DNA from: Saccharothrix ecbatanensis
GTDB lineage: Bacteria; Actinomycetota; Actinomycetes; Mycobacteriales; Pseudonocardiaceae
Assembly: GCF_014205015.1 (NCBI RefSeq)
Contig: NZ_JACHMO010000001.1
Location: forward strand, 7,626,001-7,690,000
Direction: 5' to 3'
DNA length: 64,000 nucleotides
A model generated the notes under the pieces. That model had not been told where the DNA came from and did not search any database. It saw nothing but the letters and a program-made list of their open reading frames with translations. The position numbers were made by a program, and so were the translations under genes. Of this stretch, positions 54,335-63,152 are shown one piece after another. Numbering within the stretch: the first letter of the stretch is position 1; each line of letters begins with the position of its first letter.

Positions 54335-54367
54335 CCCGGCATCCGACTCTGATTCGACGCCGATCGC

Positions 54368-54432
54368 CGTCACGCCGCACCGCCGTCACGCCGCACCGCC
54401 GTCACCCCGCACCGCCGTCACCCCGCACCGAC
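54368..54432. repeat. Short tandem repeat downstream of tadA
   Basis: About five imperfect units of the 12-mer CACGCCGCACCG or CACCCCGCACCG, each preceded by CCGT, lie between tadA and the tRNA-Ser terminator. They look like simple slippage repeats; no function is inferred. Confidence 0.7.
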
Positions 54433-54438
54433 GCGAAA

Positions 54439-54470
54439 GAGCCCCGCTCACCTGGTGGTGAGCGGGGCTC
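54439..54470. terminator. Terminator beside the tRNA-Ser(CGA) remnant
   Basis: Arms GAGCCCCGCTCACC (54439-54452) and GGTGAGCGGGGCTC (54457-54470) pair perfectly with loop TGGT. It is placed just after the tRNA 3' end on the minus strand and also serves tadA on the plus strand. Confidence 0.85.
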
Positions 54471-54477
54471 TCATCTG

Positions 54478-54531
54478 CGGTGGCGGTGGGATTTGAACCC
54501 ACGGAGGCTTTCACCTCACACGCTTTCGAGG
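54478..54531 (-). repeat. Truncated tRNA-Ser(CGA) 3' half, left end of element 3
   Basis: On the minus strand this reads CTCGAAAGCG (anticodon CGA) through the variable arm to a GGTTCAAATC T-loop and the acceptor CGCCACC. The sequence upstream cannot form an anticodon stem, D-arm or acceptor partner. It is therefore an att duplication, not a tRNA. The intact copy should lie beyond the right edge of the window. Confidence 0.82.
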
Positions 54532-54716
54532 TCTGCGAACCACCGACCGGCACCGCACGTGACAACTGTTTGTGCAGGCCAGCGAGGTGCGGCGGTTGTC
54601 CACGAACACGCGCGATCGTCAGCGAACGCCACCACGAATGCAACCACGGTGAACCGCTCTGCCCGACACAACCATCCACTGTGGACAGCCTCCGGGCGCA
54701 AGGGCGGCTGTAGCCG

Positions 54717-54933
54717 GGGGGTGGCCGCTGTTGCGGCCAGTGTGTGTTCCTCAGAAGGCGTAACACCCGTAACCGCCGTAACCATGCAGGTCAGACGGTT
54801 ACGGCCCGGTCGCGCCGCCGGTCACCGGTTACGGCTTGACCGACCCGGGTGTGGCCACCACAAGGCACCCGTAACCGTCTGATCAGCGCGGTTACGGCGG
54901 TTACGGGTGTTACGGGCTATGGGAGACAGGCAG
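54717..54933. repeat. 217-bp iteron-rich direct repeat, copy 1
   Basis: Nearly identical to 55392-55608 (same length; differences at about eight positions). It carries multiple CGTAACCG/CGGTTACG words and a perfect 24-base inverted repeat, 54760-54783 with 54890-54913. These look like binding sites for a replication or transfer protein. Its end abuts the degenerate first CRISPR repeat. Confidence 0.88.
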
Positions 54934-55202
54934 CCGCCCCCACTTGAGCGGGGAAAACCGGTTGAGGTCCGCCAACGGCATGAGGACTTCCGGAACACCC
55001 CGCCTGCGCGGGGAAGACCCGCCCAGCCCTTTGGCTTCCACCGTGGGGTCCGGAACACCCCCGCTTGCGCGGGGAAGACCCGATCCGCTGCTCGGCCAGG
55101 ATCGCCACGGCGGGAACACCCCCGCTTGCGCGGGGAAGACCCGCCACCACGCCTGAAGGTCCCGCCACCGCAGCGGAACACCCCCGCTTGCGCGGGGAAG
55201 AC
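54931..55202 (-). CRISPR. Type I-E-like CRISPR mini-array, five repeats, no cas genes
   Basis: Repeats lie at 54931-54958 (degenerate), 54992-55018 (27 bases), 55052-55079, 55113-55140 and 55175-55202. The last three are identical 28-mers that begin GGAACACCCCCGC and end GCGCGGGGAAGAC. Spacers are 33, 33, 33 and 34 bases and unrelated to one another. In type I-E convention (GTCTTCCCCGCG... first) the crRNA strand is the minus strand. The degenerate repeat at the low-coordinate end is then the trailer and the leader would be to the right of 55202. No cas gene is in the window, so processing would need the host's Cas proteins. Confidence 0.93.
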
Positions 55203-55391
55203 ACTTCATACGCTGCGACTTTACCCCGCAGATGGCCGTTTACATTCGGTTCACTTCGGTCTCGCAAGTCGACGACCTTCGACAGAGCGCAACGGACACC
55301 CGGCGGTCCAGGCGCGACGAAGTCAGCCGTGATTGACAAGAGTGCTTCGTGTCCATCCCGCCGACCTGGCTCGCCCCAGCCACACGCGTCA
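55203..55391 (-). promoter_or_regulatory. Possible CRISPR leader region
   Basis: The region beyond the last perfect repeat is locally AT-richer (for example ACTTCATACG, TTTACATTCGG) and has no gene. Given the array orientation it is where a leader with promoter and integration site should lie. Confidence 0.5.
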
Positions 55392-55608
55392 GGGGGTGGC
55401 CGCTGTTGCGGCCAGTGTGTGTTCCTCAGAAGGCGTAACACCCGTAACCGCCGTAACCATGCAGGTCAGACGGTTACGGCCCGGTCGCGCCACCCGTCAC
55501 CGGTTACGGCTTGACCGACCCGGTTATGGCCACCACAAGGCACCCGTAACCGCCTGACCAGCGCGGTTACGGCGGTTACGGGTGTTACGGGCTATGGGAG
55601 ACAGGCAG
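55392..55608. repeat. 217-bp iteron-rich direct repeat, copy 2
   Basis: Second copy of the repeat at 54717-54933, with its own perfect 24-base inverted repeat (55435-55458 with 55565-55588). Together the copies bracket the CRISPR array. After this copy the sequence turns to unrelated DNA without CRISPR repeats. Confidence 0.88.
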
Positions 55609-55723
55609 TCGCCCCTTCGGCTACAGCCGTCTTCCTCGCTAAGCCACGCCAAGCGGACCTCTCGCCGCGTGTCGGCAACAAGGCACCCACCTGGCGGCTA
55701 CCCGATCCGATCGGCAAGCCGCC

Positions 55724-56656
55724 TCACCTGCGCGCAGCGTTCGACGGCACACTGCCTGCGACAAAGGACACGATCTGCTCTGCTGCCACTGCGTAGCAGA
55801 GCTGGTTAGTCCCAGGGACCGTTCGGGCTGAGTGCGGGCTGATAATTGCTCCAGTGCAAGACCAGAGAGGGTGATCGGCAGGCAGTGGTTCAGGGTCGGT
55901 TACATCTAGTGCCGCTCGTAGCCGTCCGGCCTGAAGCTCGGTTACCAACGCAGCCGTATCCACAATCTGGCCACGCCCAACGTTGACCAACAATGCGCCA
56001 TCGTCCATCGCACTGAGGAACTTCACATCGACCAAGTGGTGCGTCTCCTCAGTCAACGGTGCGGTTATCACTACGACGTTATGACCGCCAATCAGCTCAG
56101 GCAGATCATCGGTGGCGTGAACACCATCCCGCGCAGTACGTGCTACCAGAGTCGACACAGCATCGAACGCTGAAAGCCGCTTCGCCACAGCCATGCCGAT
56201 GCTACCTGCACCGACGATCAGAACGCGCTTGCCTGAAAGGGTGTCCGCCTCGAAGCGTCGGTGAGCCCAAATGCCGTTGTCCTGGAATCTCACCAGCGCT
56301 GGCCACTGGCGAAATTGCGCAAGGATGGCCGACAGGACCCACTCGGACACCGGACCGGCGTGCGCTCCACGGGCACTAGCCAGCGTCACACCGCTAGCTA
56401 CGTGGTCCGACCATTCATCCACTCCCGCCGAAAGTAGCTGAACCATTCGCAGGTTCGACAGTTGCCCCAGTAGGCGAATAGGCCGGTGGCTGCTCCGGTA
56501 CGGTGGGATCAGGACGTCTGCTGCACTTTGCACATCCGTTAGCTTCGAAGCGGTCGGGTCGTAGGCGACCACATTCAGAGTCGGAATGGCGGACAGTAGC
56601 TCCCTGCCAACCTCGTCATCCTGCTCATTACTGACTAGGACCGTTACAGCGCTCAC
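55724..56656 (-). CDS. D-isomer-specific 2-hydroxyacid dehydrogenase
   Basis: A 310-residue NAD(P)-dependent oxidoreductase. The dinucleotide motif is VLIVGAGSIGMAVAKRL near residue 140. The catalytic arginine is in LVNVGRGQIVDTAAL, the glutamate in DVTDPEPLPADHPLW and the histidine in IISPHSART. The GTG at 56656 follows AAGGAAGG; a longer frame exists to 56686. It lies 46 bases after the GntR-kinase gene on the same strand, so the two are probably one operon. The substrate, a 2-hydroxy/2-oxo acid, is not identified. Confidence 0.87.
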   Translation of the reverse strand: MSAVTVLVSNEQDDEVGRELLSAIPTLNVVAYDPTASKLTDVQSAADVLIPPYRSSHRPIRLLGQLSNLRMVQLLSAGVDEWSDHVASGVTLASARGAHAGPVSEWVLSAILAQFRQWPALVRFQDNGIWAHRRFEADTLSGKRVLIVGAGSIGMAVAKRLSAFDAVSTLVARTARDGVHATDDLPELIGGHNVVVITAPLTEETHHLVDVKFLSAMDDGALLVNVGRGQIVDTAALVTELQAGRLRAALDVTDPEPLPADHPLWSCTGAIISPHSARTVPGTNQLCYAVAAEQIVSFVAGSVPSNAARR

Positions 56657-56702
56657 GACCAACCTTCCTTTGATCAGTGCGGACACAGCAGCAGGACGCC
56701 GA

Positions 56703-57551
56703 TCACCGTTGAGTCATAACCATGCCGACCAGTTCGCGGGCCTGGCGTTGCAGGGGAGCGCCCGACGCACTGTTGTCAATAGTCGAGTGCGGCACCGGCG
56801 GACGGAAGCCGATGTCTATCGACGATACGTAGCTTGACCAGTTGTCCAGCTTGAACGAATCGCGCGCCGCACCACGATGGCGGATATAGGTGTGCATGGT
56901 TTCCGCGTCACAATGCACCCATACGATTGATAGCGTTGCACCCATGTCGATACACGACGCCTCTATCCTGTTCAGCCACGCGACGTCGTTAAACTCTTTG
57001 ATGAACGGCGCTGTAACGATCGCACTGTTTCCGCATTGTACGTTCTCTGTCATTGCGTTGATCAGTGCTTCGTATTCGCGCGGACGAATTCGTGATACGT
57101 ACTCCTCGGACTCTCGGTCGTGCGGCGACTGCCCCAGTAGTTCCAATGCGGCCTCTACGACCGGTCGAGTCAGCGTGTCCTTGTCCAACATGGACCAACC
57201 GGTTTCGCGCGCCAATACCCGACCAAGTTCCGTTTTGCCACTCCCGGCGTAACCGCCGACAAGCAGTACACGCGGCGAATCCGTCCGAACCTCGTGCCGT
57301 TCGGCCTGTTCTGGCGCATTAACGACACGCCCAGCCCGAGGCTTGCTAACGATTACGTTCTCACTCGCCAGAAGCTTCATTGCTTCGCTAATCGTGAAGA
57401 CGCTAACTCCCCACTCGCGGGCAAGGTCACGCGTCGAAGGCAACGATTGGCCATCACGGAGTACTCCCGCCGCAATCTGGTTCCGGATGTTCCGGGCTAC
57501 CTGCTGGTGCAGCGACTCCGCTCGCGCTACGCGAGGGCTCTGGCCTGACAT
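56703..57551 (-). CDS. GntR-type regulator fused to a P-loop kinase domain
   Basis: A 282-residue two-domain protein. Residues 10-80 are a GntR winged helix (GQSLPSTRDLAREWGVSVFT, ISEAMKLLASENVI). From about 95 a P-loop NTPase/kinase domain begins with VLLVGGYAGSGKTELGRVLA and continues with DKDTLTRPVVEAALELLG and WVHCDAETMHTYI, like small nucleoside or shikimate-type kinases. A regulator that binds or phosphorylates its own ligand is plausible. ATG 57551 has GGAGG five bases upstream. It precedes the 2-hydroxyacid dehydrogenase gene. Confidence 0.83.
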   Translation of the reverse strand: MSGQSPRVARAESLHQQVARNIRNQIAAGVLRDGQSLPSTRDLAREWGVSVFTISEAMKLLASENVIVSKPRAGRVVNAPEQAERHEVRTDSPRVLLVGGYAGSGKTELGRVLARETGWSMLDKDTLTRPVVEAALELLGQSPHDRESEEYVSRIRPREYEALINAMTENVQCGNSAIVTAPFIKEFNDVAWLNRIEASCIDMGATLSIVWVHCDAETMHTYIRHRGAARDSFKLDNWSSYVSSIDIGFRPPVPHSTIDNSASGAPLQRQARELVGMVMTQR

Positions 57552-57656
57552 GCCACCTCCGGTGCTCAGTCCCCGAGCCAGCAGCATACCAGTCACCTAA
57601 CAGCGTCCCTGCGGGCGTTTGTGCAGGTAGATGCCCTTCTTGTGGCCAGGTTCGAC

Positions 57657-57690
57657 CTAACAGTTGACCTGATGTCATATCAACTGTTAG
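57657..57690. promoter_or_regulatory. Operator-like inverted repeat in the divergent region
   Basis: Arms CTAACAGTTGA (57657-57667) and TCAACTGTTAG (57680-57690) are perfect complements with a 12-base spacer. TTGACC inside the left arm and TTAGCT in the right arm are 17 bases apart, resembling a promoter for the plus-strand operon. A third CCTAACAG half-site lies near 57596. The GntR-kinase protein is the likely binder. Confidence 0.65.
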
Positions 57691-57740
57691 CTTCCTCTCG
57701 TCGCTGGATGTAACGGCGACCACACGGAGAGGAAGACCCG

Positions 57741-57986: not shown

Positions 57987-58816
57987 TGCGCACCATCACC
58001 CACTCCACTGGTCCCGTTCAGCTCGCGTTGGACGTCGCGCTCGGCCACGTCGAGGTGCACTTGGAGGAAGGCCGCGACGTCGCCGAGGTGACGCTCTCGC
58101 CGATGGAGTTCGGCGACTCGACCGCCGCGCGGTTGATCGCCGACACCGAGGTTGCCGAGACCGCTGACCGGCTCGCCGTGCGGGTGCCGCGTCCTCACGG
58201 CGTGAACGGCGGCACGACCGTCATTCAGTCCCGTGGTGCTGTGATCCAGATGTTCGGCGACGTCGTCAACGTCGTTGGCGTCACGATCGTCAACGGCCGC
58301 GTGATCAGCGGGACCGGTGCGACCGTCGTCCAGACCGGGGGCGGTGTCCGTGTGGTCGCCCGCTTGCCGCTCGGTTCGACGCTGGCCCTGGACACCCGGA
58401 CCGCGCCGGTCGTGGTCACGGGGCAGGTGCGCAGCCTGCGGTTCCGGTCGCTGGCCGGTGACCTGACCGCGAACCGCGTGGACAACCTCGACGTCGAGAC
58501 CACCTCCGGTGACGTGAGCGTCGCCCGTGTGGGGTTCGCCCAGGTGCGCAGCGTCTCCGGTGATGTCGAGGTCGGCGCGGCCCGCGACGTCACGTTGACC
58601 ACGACGTCGGGTGACGTCGACATCGCGGAGTTGGCAGGGACCGCGCAGGTGCGCGCGGTGTCCGGGGACGTGACGGTCCACGCGGTGGAGCCGTCCGGTG
58701 TGGACGCCCGGTCGGTGTCCGGTGACATCACCGTCAGCAGTGGCCCCGGTGTGCTGGTCGCCAGCAACACCCGCACGGTGTCCGGCCGCGTGCGCAACCG
58801 GACGGAGCGTGCGTGA
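57986..58816 (+). CDS. DUF4097-like beta-strand repeat protein
   Basis: A 276-residue protein whose second half is a ladder of short beta units, with SGDV or SGDI recurring (ETTSGDVSVARVGF, RSVSGDVEVGAARDV, TTSGDVDIAEL, RSVSGDITVSS). This is the DUF4097 adhesin-like beta-helix. The middle contains GDVVNVVGVTIVNGRVISG, rich in Val/Asn/Gly. There is no signal peptide. It is frequent in this type of element but of unknown role. Start and stop overlap both neighbours. Confidence 0.82.
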   Translation: MRTITHSTGPVQLALDVALGHVEVHLEEGRDVAEVTLSPMEFGDSTAARLIADTEVAETADRLAVRVPRPHGVNGGTTVIQSRGAVIQMFGDVVNVVGVTIVNGRVISGTGATVVQTGGGVRVVARLPLGSTLALDTRTAPVVVTGQVRSLRFRSLAGDLTANRVDNLDVETTSGDVSVARVGFAQVRSVSGDVEVGAARDVTLTTTSGDVDIAELAGTAQVRAVSGDVTVHAVEPSGVDARSVSGDITVSSGPGVLVASNTRTVSGRVRNRTERA

Positions 58817-59280
58817 TGGCGGGCAAGACGTTCCCGTGGGTGCTGACCGCGTCGGTGCCGTGGGCCGATGGTCCGCAGTACACGCGGGGCACGCACGACG
58901 GGTTGCCACTGCTGTCCTACGGCTGCGCCCCTCGCGCCAAGCTGGCCACTTACCGGCAGTTGCGCGCCATGGGCTTACGGCCCAACGGGCAGGACCCGGT
59001 GGCGGTGCTCTACGTGCGGCACAACGCGTCCGGGAAGACGTCGTTCGCGTCGCTGTACCTGATCGAGAAGGCCGCTCCGGTCCGGCCGATGACACCGGCC
59101 AAGTGGACCGCGTTGGCCAAGGCCAACCTCGCCCGCCGCATCTGCCGCATCTGCGGCAAGGACCCGCTGTACGTGCTGCCGACCAGCACCGGCTTGTGCT
59201 GGCCGTGCTTCGCGGCCGAGACCGCCGTGAGCGACACCGTCGACTGCGGTACGGCCGACGACTGGGCGGAGGCCGCGTGA
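58816..59280 (+). CDS. RRQRL-type zinc-binding protein
   Basis: A 154-residue cytosolic protein of the kind annotated as RRQRL motif-containing zinc-binding protein in actinomycete conjugative elements. The motif itself is changed here to TYRQLRAMGLRP near residue 47. The zinc ligands are CRICGKDP and LCWPCFAAE near residues 111-135. Its function is unknown. ATG 58816 overlaps the preceding stop; the next ATG overlaps its own stop. Confidence 0.75.
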   Translation: MAGKTFPWVLTASVPWADGPQYTRGTHDGLPLLSYGCAPRAKLATYRQLRAMGLRPNGQDPVAVLYVRHNASGKTSFASLYLIEKAAPVRPMTPAKWTALAKANLARRICRICGKDPLYVLPTSTGLCWPCFAAETAVSDTVDCGTADDWAEAA

Positions 59281-59998: not shown

Positions 59999-60909
59999 CC
60001 AGTGCGTACCCGACCCCGGTCGACACGCTCACGGAGAAGGTCAAGGCCCGCGCGATCGAGCTGGGCGAGATGCCGTCCCGCAACAGGATCAAGACCGAGT
60101 TCAAGGTGGGTGCGCCCAAGGCCACTGCGGTGCTGGCCGCGCTCACCGACGCCGGGTTCGACCCGACCCGCCCGGAGGTCGCCGACGTTGAGGTTCCGGC
60201 CCGCCGGTTGCACGCTGTCCCGTCCGAGACCACGCCCGCCACGCCGGTGACGGAAGAGCCCAGGGCGCAAGCGTCACTCCCACTCGACACCCAGCCGGTG
60301 GCGGTCGACTCCGAGGTGACCGAGGTCGCGACCCCGGTCCAGCCGGACGCCGTGTCGGCCGATACGGGGGACGAAAGCCCCGCCGCGGACACGGCCGGCG
60401 CGCGGGACGAAACTCCGCCGGCGGGGAAACGTCACCAGTCGACCACCCCTGACGCCAGGGTGAAGCCGGTGCGGTCGTGGCCGCTGCTGTTGCTGGCGGT
60501 GGGCGCGTTCGTGGCCATCTGGGGTGGCTGGGTGGGTCTGGGTGAGCTGACCGGTTTCGGCCCGATCCGGCTGCTGCCCGGCATCGCGGACGGGTTCGTC
60601 ATCAACTCTGCGATCACGTTGCCGATCGGTGTGGAGGCCTACGCGGCGTACGCGTTGCGGGTGTGGCTGTCCGGTGGCACCAGGTCGGTGAAGGCGCGCA
60701 GGTTCGCCCGTGCGTCCGCGATCGGCTCGCTGGTGTTGGGCGCGGCCGGTCAGGTGGCCTATCACCTGATGGTCGCGGCAGGGATCACCGTCGCGCCGTG
60801 GTGGATCACCACCTTCGTGTCGTGCCTGCCCGTGGTCGTTCTCGGCTGCGGCGCTGCCTTGACCCACCTGCTCCACGACCAGGACGACGACGCGGAGGTG
60901 ACCCGATGA
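59995..60909 (+). CDS. SpdB/DUF2637-like membrane protein
   Basis: A 304-residue protein. The N-terminal 60 residues hold an HTH-like unit (MPSRNRIKTEFKVGAPKATA). A long disordered acidic/Pro linker follows (about 65-160). The C-terminal part has four membrane helices (WPLLLLAVGAFVAIWGGWVG, FVINSAITLPIGVEAYAAYA, IGSLVLGAAGQVAYHLMV, ITTFVSCLPVVVLGCG), the DUF2637/SpdB arrangement. It is expected to act with the TraSA-type translocase in mycelial spread. It overlaps the translocase gene by ATGA. Confidence 0.78.
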   Translation: MTSAYPTPVDTLTEKVKARAIELGEMPSRNRIKTEFKVGAPKATAVLAALTDAGFDPTRPEVADVEVPARRLHAVPSETTPATPVTEEPRAQASLPLDTQPVAVDSEVTEVATPVQPDAVSADTGDESPAADTAGARDETPPAGKRHQSTTPDARVKPVRSWPLLLLAVGAFVAIWGGWVGLGELTGFGPIRLLPGIADGFVINSAITLPIGVEAYAAYALRVWLSGGTRSVKARRFARASAIGSLVLGAAGQVAYHLMVAAGITVAPWWITTFVSCLPVVVLGCGAALTHLLHDQDDDAEVTR

Positions 60910-63152
60910 GCGTCACGACGACGATGGTCGGCACGCCCGACCCCGACGAACGGCCCGAGATGTCGGCCGCGACCGGCAACGTCTACCCGCTGCGCCCCAC
61001 CGACTCCACCACCGCGCACACCACGGAAGAGTCGCCGGGTGCCGACGTGGAACGGGCACCGGAAGTCCTGGACGCGGAGTTGGTCGAGGACGACGCCCCC
61101 GCTGGTGAGCGGCCCGTGACGCTGGTCGACCAGCCCGGTAGCGCGAGCGATGGCGACTGGGTGGCGCGGCTGCGGGAGACCGAGCGGTTGCCGATCGTTC
61201 CCGGCTACCTGCGCACGGTGTCGGAGGCGAAGCAGACCGCAGGGTGGGTGGCGCGGCACTACGCGCACGCCACCGGCTACCACGCGGTCCGTGCGCCGCT
61301 GTACCTGCTCAAGCTCGCTGCCCGGTCCCCGCAGGGCGCGGTGCTGCTGCTGGCCGCGACCGGCCGGTGGGTCTCGGACGCGGAGGGCCGTCCACTGCGT
61401 CGGGAGATGGCGGTCCGGGGTGAGGCCGAGAAGTACCTCAAGCTCGTGCACGAGCGTGACGCGCGGGTCCGACTGCGCACGATCCTGCTGCTGGTCGGGT
61501 CCACCCTCGGGGTGCTGCTGTTCATGGTGCTCCCCGAGGTGACGCCGGGGTGGGTCACCTGGGTCTGCGGCATGGTTGCGCTGGGCATTCTCGGCAAGCT
61601 CGGCACCCCGGCGGACAAGCCCGTCGCGGGCCGTGCGGTGATCGGCGCGCAGGCCGCCAAGCTCACCTCGGACGTGGTGGTCCGGGCGTTGACCTCGCTG
61701 GGTATCGCCGGGATCAACGGGCCTGTCGCCAAGCACGGCCAGCAGGCCATCGGGTTCACCGCGCCCATCACCCGCGACGGACCCGGTTGGCGCGCGGACG
61801 TGGAACTACCCGGTGGTGTCACCGCGACCGAGGTTGTCGAGCGCCGGGAGAAGCTCGCGTCCGGCCTGGGGCGTCCGCTCGGGTGCGTGTGGCCGGAGCA
61901 CAACGCCAACGGCCACCCCGGTCAGCTCGTGCTGTGGGTGGGGGACCGTGACATGTCCAAGGCCAAGCAGCCCACGTGGCCGCTGGCCAAGGGTGCCGCG
62001 ATCGACCTGTTCAAGCCGCAGCCGTTCGGCACCGACGTACGCGGCCGGTGGGTCGAGATCGTGCTCATGTTCGTGTCCGGCGTCATCGGCGCGATCCCCC
62101 GCATGGGCAAGACCTTCACACTGCGGGAACTGCTGATCATCGCCGGGTTGGACCCGCGCAGCGAGCTGCACACCTACGACCTCAAGGGCACCGGCGACCT
62201 GTCCCCACTCGCCCTGGTGTCGCACCGCTACCGGGCCGGTGACGACCCGGAGGACATCGCGTACGCCCTGGCCGACCTGCGGGCACTGCGGGAGGAGATG
62301 CGCCGCCGCACCAAGGTGATCCGGGAACTGCCCAAGGACCTGTGCCCGGAGAACAAGGTCACGTCGGCGCTGGCGTCGAAGCAGTCCCTGCGGCTGCACC
62401 CCATCGTGATCGGCGCGGACGAGTGCCAGGTGTGGTTCGAACACCCCGACCACGGCGCGGAGTTCGAGGAAATCTGCACCGACCTGGTCAAGCGCGGCCC
62501 GGCCACCGGCATCGTGCTGCTCCTGGCCACGCAGCGGCCGGACTCGAAGTCCATCCCCACCCAGATCAGCGACAACGCCGTGTTCCGGTTCTGCCTCAAG
62601 GTGACAGGACAGACCGCCAACGACATGGTGTTGGGCACGTCGTCCTACAAGAACGGAGAGCGCGCCACGCAGTTCTCGTTCTCCGACAAGGGAATCGGTC
62701 TGCTCAAGGGCGTCACCGACGAGACCACCACGGTCAAGGGCGTCTACATCGACGGCCCGGCGGCGGAGACCATCGCGGGCAGAGCACGGGCACTGCGCAC
62801 AGCCGCAGGGCTGCTCACCGGCTACGCCGCAGGGCTGGACACCACAGTGGACGACAACGACACCGCGTCCACGCTGCTGGCCGACGTGCTCACCGCGATG
62901 GGCGCGGCGGACAAGATGTGGTCGGAGTCCATCGTGGACGGTCTCGCCGACCTCCGACCCGCCATCTACGGGCCGTGGGCCGAACAGGACGGCAAGGGCA
63001 AGGCCATGCAGCTCTCGGCCGCGCTCAAGCCCTACGGCGTCGGCACCGGCCAGGTGTGGGGCACCGACCCCGCCACCGGCAAGGGAGCCAACCGGCGCGG
63101 CGTCGAACGCGCCCACATCACAGCAGCCATCACGGAGCGCGACGGCAAGTAG
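60906..63152 (+). CDS. FtsK/SpoIIIE-type DNA translocase (TraSA-like)
   Basis: A 748-residue conjugative DNA pump. Residues 1-170 are a variable cytosolic region; two membrane helices lie near 200-250 (ILLLVGSTLGVLLFMVLP, VTWVCGMVALGILG). The motor has Walker A as GAIPRMGKTFTLRE near residue 400 and Walker B as HPIVIGADECQVWF near residue 503, followed by LLLATQRPDSKSIP. AICEs transfer double-stranded DNA between hyphae with one such protein, so this is the transfer determinant of element 3. An inverted repeat follows the stop. Confidence 0.92.
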   Translation: MSVTTTMVGTPDPDERPEMSAATGNVYPLRPTDSTTAHTTEESPGADVERAPEVLDAELVEDDAPAGERPVTLVDQPGSASDGDWVARLRETERLPIVPGYLRTVSEAKQTAGWVARHYAHATGYHAVRAPLYLLKLAARSPQGAVLLLAATGRWVSDAEGRPLRREMAVRGEAEKYLKLVHERDARVRLRTILLLVGSTLGVLLFMVLPEVTPGWVTWVCGMVALGILGKLGTPADKPVAGRAVIGAQAAKLTSDVVVRALTSLGIAGINGPVAKHGQQAIGFTAPITRDGPGWRADVELPGGVTATEVVERREKLASGLGRPLGCVWPEHNANGHPGQLVLWVGDRDMSKAKQPTWPLAKGAAIDLFKPQPFGTDVRGRWVEIVLMFVSGVIGAIPRMGKTFTLRELLIIAGLDPRSELHTYDLKGTGDLSPLALVSHRYRAGDDPEDIAYALADLRALREEMRRRTKVIRELPKDLCPENKVTSALASKQSLRLHPIVIGADECQVWFEHPDHGAEFEEICTDLVKRGPATGIVLLLATQRPDSKSIPTQISDNAVFRFCLKVTGQTANDMVLGTSSYKNGERATQFSFSDKGIGLLKGVTDETTTVKGVYIDGPAAETIAGRARALRTAAGLLTGYAAGLDTTVDDNDTASTLLADVLTAMGAADKMWSESIVDGLADLRPAIYGPWAEQDGKGKAMQLSAALKPYGVGTGQVWGTDPATGKGANRRGVERAHITAAITERDGK

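Follow-up and report, generated by a model that had tools for sequence, protein, structure and literature searches.

A short CRISPR array of type I-E is carried near one end of an integrated AICE in the 64,000-nt stretch of Saccharothrix DNA analyzed here (the window). The reading that we consider best, with moderate confidence and on the strength of sequence comparisons, is that this cas-less mini-array is cargo, a portable and read-only memory that would be used by the Cascade of the host against phages and rival elements. Several AICEs bear arrays with differing contents, which is the more interesting result and one that lies outside the window. The recurrence on AICEs of cas-less arrays that have kept their leaders and differ in their spacers would mean that conjugation spreads immune memory and not immune machinery, and it raises the question of whether a genome with Cascade and without Cas1 can renew its immunity through arrays on mobile elements.

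The array and the element that carries it

The array consists of five type I-E repeats and four distinct spacers on the minus strand at 54930-55202, as a preliminary description of this DNA had stated, with the leader on its right side. The repeats are 29 nt long, start at 54930, 54990, 55051, 55112 and 55174, and recur with a period of 60-62; three of the five are identical across 28 nt, the fourth is damaged by a 1-nt deletion and one change, and the leftmost, terminal repeat (54930-54958) is degenerate. Read on the minus strand, the repeat is GTCTTCCCCGCGCAAGCGGGGGTGTTCC, and the handle to be expected on crRNAs from this array is GUGUUCCG. Spacers 1 to 4, all on the minus strand, occupy 55141-55173, 55080-55111, 55019-55050 and 54959-54990, and measure 33, 32, 32 and 31 nt, respectively (the last is 32 nt once the deletion is allowed for). 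The hairpin fold of a 29-nt repeat, unique spacers of 32-33 nt, and a leader at one end with a degenerate repeat at the opposite end are all as in arrays of type I-E. The leader and its upstream sequence (55203-55391, minus strand) include a TAAAGT box 15 nt ahead of the first repeat; a comparable box occurs at the equal position in several other leaders that were compared and is absent from the leaders of the AICE arrays of genomes G002 and G012. The repeat pattern, with up to three mismatches, occurs at 66 sites in the host genome as compared to none for the same pattern read backward, and is therefore more than a product of chance. The exact repeat had no occurrences in the database of genome contigs.

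The carrier is a 15.2-kb AICE integrated in tRNA-Ser(CGA). A duplicate of at least 54 nt from the 3' end of this tRNA gene is present at window positions 54478-54531 (far att site, 54477-54531, minus strand), and the intact gene lies beyond the window at genome positions 7695679-7695764. The region between the att sites encodes a tyrosine integrase, an Xis excisionase, a DUF3631 Rep and a Prim-Pol, and further a C5-methylase-like protein, a 2-hydroxyacid dehydrogenase-like protein (55724-56686, minus strand, PF02826), a protein with GntR and AAA domains (56703-57596, minus strand, PF00392 and PF13671), and the RRQRL motif zinc-binding protein orf154 (58816-59280, plus strand, NF041638), which served as an AICE marker. 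Integration at a tRNA gene with att duplication, together with the integrase, DUF3631 Rep and Prim-Pol, places the element among AICEs of the RepAM/Prim-Pol type, the RepAM type being defined by the replication genes DUF3631 and Prim-Pol (PMC3218068). The mobile element of the preliminary description is borne out by the tRNA duplication and the gene set enclosed by it, and, as was also claimed, no cas genes were recognized among the genes of the element that were scanned. The product of 60906-63152 (plus strand) is presumably a TraB/FtsK-like translocase, a name that draws on weak matches and on the AICE context; it matches TIGR03924 at 3.9e-08, which is under the cut-off of that model, and a DNA translocase coupling protein at 5.7e-04, and it has no match in Pfam, PF01580 (FtsK/SpoIIIE-type) included. 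The stretch 54460-57700 had no match in phage records, and 40 plasmid records had matches to the array region, none of which covered more than 80% of it. A 16-bp tandem repeat, CGCCGTCACGCCGCAC, is present in about 4-5 copies at 54365-54444, in the interval that separates a deaminase-like gene from the far att site.

Flanking the array are two direct copies of a 224-nt unit, R (R1, 54717-54940; R2, 55392-55615), which are 97% identical and 675 bp apart. The two near-identical repeats reported earlier are thus real, although each is 224 nt and not 217 bp long, and the array does lie between them, although not "exactly", since R1 overlaps the last bases of the degenerate terminal repeat by about 11 nt and R2 is set off from the first repeat by 189 nt. 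The unit is palindromic and rich in GTAAC/GTTAC, with arms that are 76% complementary, and R1 has relatives in other AICEs. Two closely related elements, L212 (S. yanglingensis) and L117 (genome G024, at the same tRNA-Ser site), have a single R unit and no array, so R is a feature of AICEs that has been doubled around the array. Of the earlier proposal that the array had been inserted with a duplication or the repeats captured around it, the doubling stands, and R itself is seen to belong to array-free relatives as well. The R-array-R arrangement looks derived, and recombination at a single R probably brought in, or duplicated, an array-leader-R unit, which would have left R in two copies. An inverted repeat, CGGCTGTAGCCG/CGGCTACAGCCG, at 54705-54721 and 55613-55629 encloses R-array-R, and a similar inverted pair sits within the single R unit of L212 and of L117. 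The stretch between the leader and R2 (window 55339-55391) recurs at L225:16359-16414, L236:8182-8583 and L237:7834-8225; it is found upstream of arrays of genomes G001 and G003, and a second AICE-like locus in the host genome has an 88% similar stretch as one arm of an inverted repeat.

Host machinery and spacer targets

The 9.69-Mb genome of the host (G000) carries its type I-E interference genes in the chromosome and not on the element, with open genes for Cas3, Cse1, Cse2, Cas7, Cas5 and Cas6e at 1.073-1.081 Mb; the lack of a host I-E cas locus, which had been named beforehand as grounds for giving up the proposed function, is therefore not the case. Six chromosomal I-E arrays lie within 1.070-1.149 Mb (G000:C1:1070824-1148833, L033-L037). 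They comprise 87 repeats, in a single direction, around the Cas3-Cascade operon. Neither PF01867 nor a 327-aa Cas1 protein taken from a sister species detected Cas1 in the host; the latter query has relatives in G001, G011, G012 and G055 and none in G000, G002 and G018. With open Cascade genes and no Cas1 found, interference is possible in this host and acquisition probably is not, and the immune memory of the host looks frozen, as far as its gene content can tell. The comparison with the chromosomal arrays that had been recommended earlier shows that the repeat differs from the host consensus at 2 nt: the stem is kept, the loop reads GCAA as compared to GCGA in the host, and one base of the 5' handle is changed. 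The commonest repeat (23 of 28) of an array at 3.638 Mb in G001 shares the GTGTTCC end, so the variant is one that full arrays use.

Leader sequences were compared over the last 70 nt. The leader of the window array is 69-76% identical to those of nine of ten arrays of G001, G003, G008 and G011 and 63% identical to the tenth (a false array of G001, at 3630212, being excluded), as compared to 49-61% for the six host arrays, one of which, at 1072503, has an uncertain start. Because the leader is nearer to arrays of other genomes than to those of the host, the array probably did not come from the latter; such an origin, which the two repeat differences likewise do not favor, was set aside. Identity to the AICE arrays of G002, G012, G018 and G055 is 50-59%, no nearer than to the host arrays, so the leaders of AICE arrays do not make up a single lineage.

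The matching of spacers to mobile DNA, also called for in the preliminary description, produced targets for two of the four, in a prophage gene and in a gene of a mobile island. Spacer 4 matches at 29 of 32 positions a phage-type DNA polymerase I gene in a prophage of G032, with AAG adjoining and all three mismatches silent; tail, endolysin and primase genes lie nearby, and the target polymerase is also present on a 37-kb IMG/VR contig. In phage records it matches genes for DNA polymerase I in phages of Streptomyces and Microbacterium at 85-91%; these matches are not significant alone, but the genes are of the same kind as the prophage target. Among the 25 genomes of the genus that were searched, spacer 1 matches at 32 of 33 positions an AbiJ_NTD3-type gene of G003, which has a DUF559-like end in another frame and lies on an island that also encodes three serine recombinases as well as transposases; this target is next to GGG and not AAN. 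For the I-E system of Streptomyces avermitilis, AAG is described as the usual PAM and AAN as effective in the available parts of PMC4762764 and PMC12231136. An AAA/NACHT-type gene of G003 (L101:13497-15176) lies near the AbiJ-type gene, among the serine recombinases and transposases.

Spacers 2 and 3, with no target found, match only the array itself at up to three mismatches in 294 genomes of the family, and the reversed control gave none. At E values up to 1, no credible match to any of the four spacers turned up in plasmid records (spacer 2 reached 0.06 at best and spacer 1 reached 0.07, both in non-related plasmids, and spacer 3 had no match), the best E value in phage records was 0.3, and viral contigs searched with seed patterns gave no matches for each of the four. 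According to the accessible text of PMC12231136, 99.5% of 2,104 Streptomyces spacers are unlike any phage or plasmid. None of the four spacers matches the AICE loci, its own element included, within 7 mismatches, so the earlier suggestion that the array guards against a second copy of its own element is not supported.

Arrays on other AICEs

The orf154 marker is present in 87 of 294 genomes of the family. In Saccharothrix it has 22 matches in 12 of 25 genomes, and 21 of these were taken with their flanks; since the match at G005:C45 was left out and L224 is cut by a contig end, arrays may have been missed. Cas-less I-E arrays are present in six of the 21 loci, with 5 repeats in the window, 12 in G002, 5 each in G011 and G001, 3 in G018, and 2 plus a degenerate third in G012. 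A set of named AICE loci, the best 80 of 207 relatives among the matches listed (60 of them Streptomyces, and six of them Saccharothrix contigs already within the first set), yielded one I-E array, in Umezawaea beigongshangensis. A doubtful two-repeat site in L211 was left uncounted, and the three-copy periodic matches in L133, L137, L164, L166, L182 and L189 lack the I-E repeat. The Umezawaea element (L108/L135, NZ_JAEIOJ010000005.1), which is integrated in tRNA-Tyr, has three tandem array-leader-R modules, with 22, 15 and 12 repeats and no cas match.

All seven array-bearing AICEs have an intact tRNA gene at one boundary and 30 nt of its 3' end, exactly repeated, at the other, with six tRNA genes used altogether, and in all seven the array lies no more than about 0.2-2.4 kb away from the far att site (the nearest array, in the case of Umezawaea); in G018 it lies between two att copies. 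When six Cas proteins of the host, which did not include Cas1 or Cas2, served as tblastn queries, no cas genes were detected inside the seven elements. The AICEs of G002 and G012 sit at different tRNA genes, are 93% identical across 5,007 bp, leader included, and have no spacers in common (11 as compared to 2); judged from these sequences, either spacers have been gained and lost since the split or array bodies may have been exchanged. Cas1 is present in G012, and G002 has no match for Cas1 or Cse1; in G018, a draft of 130 contigs, Cse1 appears only as a fragment below the cut-off, and there is no Cas1. Array-free relatives, which had been regarded in advance as the sign of a dead fragment, thus exist (L212 and L117), and other relatives have arrays with different spacers. 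Genome G002 also has two AICEs (L207 and L210-L211) that are 99.8% identical over a common 7,601 bp; one carries the 12-repeat array, and the other has no comparable array.

A few spacers resemble AICE sequences. Spacer 2 of the G018 AICE, read on the opposite strand, encodes VWFEHPDHG, a motif of the TraB of the window element, and matches this traB gene at 29 of 34 positions, as well as several other AICEs; three of its 5 mismatches here are near the PAM end, so action on the window element is unlikely, the real target probably being a relative outside the sample. In G001, a chromosomal spacer has a 4-mismatch match in orf154 itself, flanked by AAG, at a level where the reversed control gave none; a second one fits AICE loci at 5 mismatches, again with AAG. 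For 287 chromosomal spacers of G000, G001, G003 and G008, matches at up to 4, 5 and 6 mismatches numbered 1, 2 and 7 forward and 0, 2 and 2 reversed, so that at 5 mismatches true and reversed spacers are equal (2 of 287 each); reversed sets of AICE-borne spacers gave none at up to 5 mismatches, and reversed chromosomal spacers gave 1 of 79. The target set included L101 and L107, which had been chosen by way of spacers 1 and 4, and the matches of those two are therefore not independent. Zero-mismatch matches of strings from G002, G055 and G012 were excluded from the counts, as they are spurious or fall on the very arrays of origin; a length filter removed at least 2 of the 84 extracted strings, and G055 yielded 54 strings as compared to 46 spacers expected from its 49 repeats.

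Likely use, alternatives and known systems

Borrowing of host I-E machinery against phages and rivals, as the preliminary description had proposed, appears to be the likeliest use of the array, and the open host gene set, the near-identical repeat and the arrays in other AICEs are all in keeping with it. The array would be transcribed leftward from its own leader, the transcript would be cut at the hairpin by the host's Cas6e, and the crRNAs would be used by Cascade-Cas3 against phages and competing elements. Spacers would be gained only in hosts with Cas1-Cas2, which would make the memory read-only in the present host. Since related elements have similar arrays with other spacers, AICEs may bring their own immune memory with them. 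A broader reading, which we advance only tentatively, is that this memory could be updated on passage through Cas1-Cas2 hosts and read by the Cascade of the next host, so that the element as well as its host would be armed against phages and against competing AICEs, with TraB as one possible target, and that conjugation could in this way spread read-only immunity to hosts that have lost adaptation.

The main rival, and a serious one even though we judge it rather unlikely, is that the array and its leader arrived by recombination and are now a dead or decaying passenger that does nothing. The degenerate terminal repeat and the damaged fourth repeat would fit such decay, as would the absence of arrays from 15 of 21 and 79 of 80 AICE loci, and orphan arrays are often regarded as remnants, according to the available text of PMC9071438. 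Three identical repeats, a leader box that has been kept, the open host Cascade and the target matches argue against it, as does the fact that arrays recur close to the same end of seven AICEs, with spacers that differ between sister AICEs. It remains a serious rival because two carrier hosts, G002 and G018, have no complete Cse1 match, and G002 bears the longest Saccharothrix AICE array. Recombination could also be the main role of R and the CRISPR repeats, through which elements and hosts would exchange DNA or amplify it, immunity being a by-product. R-array-R in the window and the tandem modules of Umezawaea suggest as much, and R-like copies occur in G170 with no array nearby; five of the seven array-bearing AICEs, however, lack the GTAAC-rich R unit in the stretch examined, and integration takes place at tRNA genes, which leaves this explanation improbable. 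More improbable still is a decoy, in which transcripts of the variant repeat would bind the host's Cas6e or Cascade and weaken host immunity. The handle and loop do differ from those of the host repeat, and single repeat units of phages are described as acting in this manner in the part of PMC11656645 available, but several repeats, normal spacers, target matches and a leader set the array apart from such solitary units. An RNA anti-CRISPR (Racr) is recognized as a solitary repeat without a spacer, and five repeats and four spacers are present here.

Viruses are already known to carry mini-arrays, and plasmids and ICEs to carry orphan arrays, and the cargo reading that we prefer has its closest counterparts among these. 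No publication on AICE-borne CRISPR arrays was found in the literature covered, outside which most subscription journals fall, and the available part of PMC3218068 names no CRISPR on AICEs. The mini-arrays of archaeal viruses, as described in the sources available in part, likewise have no cas genes, have their own leader and are proposed to use host Cas proteins; related elements carry them in the same place with different spacers, and their targets include competitors, as those of AICE arrays may. They hold one or two spacers, and mutual targeting has been shown for them, whereas AICEs are actinobacterial and conjugative and have more spacers. Orphan plasmid arrays are similarly cas-less and on transmissible elements, and use of host Cas proteins is suggested by the authors in the accessible text of PMC9071438; SCP1 of Streptomyces coelicolor A3(2) is an actinobacterial example with a short array of four spacers and no cas genes, as partly accessible in PMC12231136. 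Both replicate as plasmids, according to these sources, whereas AICEs are integrated, with arrays near one att end and spacers that differ between sisters. The Frankia element Fcci3350 is, like the AICE here, an actinobacterial integrative element with CRISPR parts, but it is of the T4SS type, has cas components and is called likely non-functional in the available part of PMC3218068. The ICEs and IMEs of ESKAPE bacteria are, like these AICEs, integrative elements with arrays, but they are of the relaxase type and belong to proteobacteria and firmicutes, and orphan and complete systems are pooled in the accessible account (PMC9841420), in which 61.3% of their spacers are reported to be directed against prophages and 37.8% against other ICEs/IMEs.
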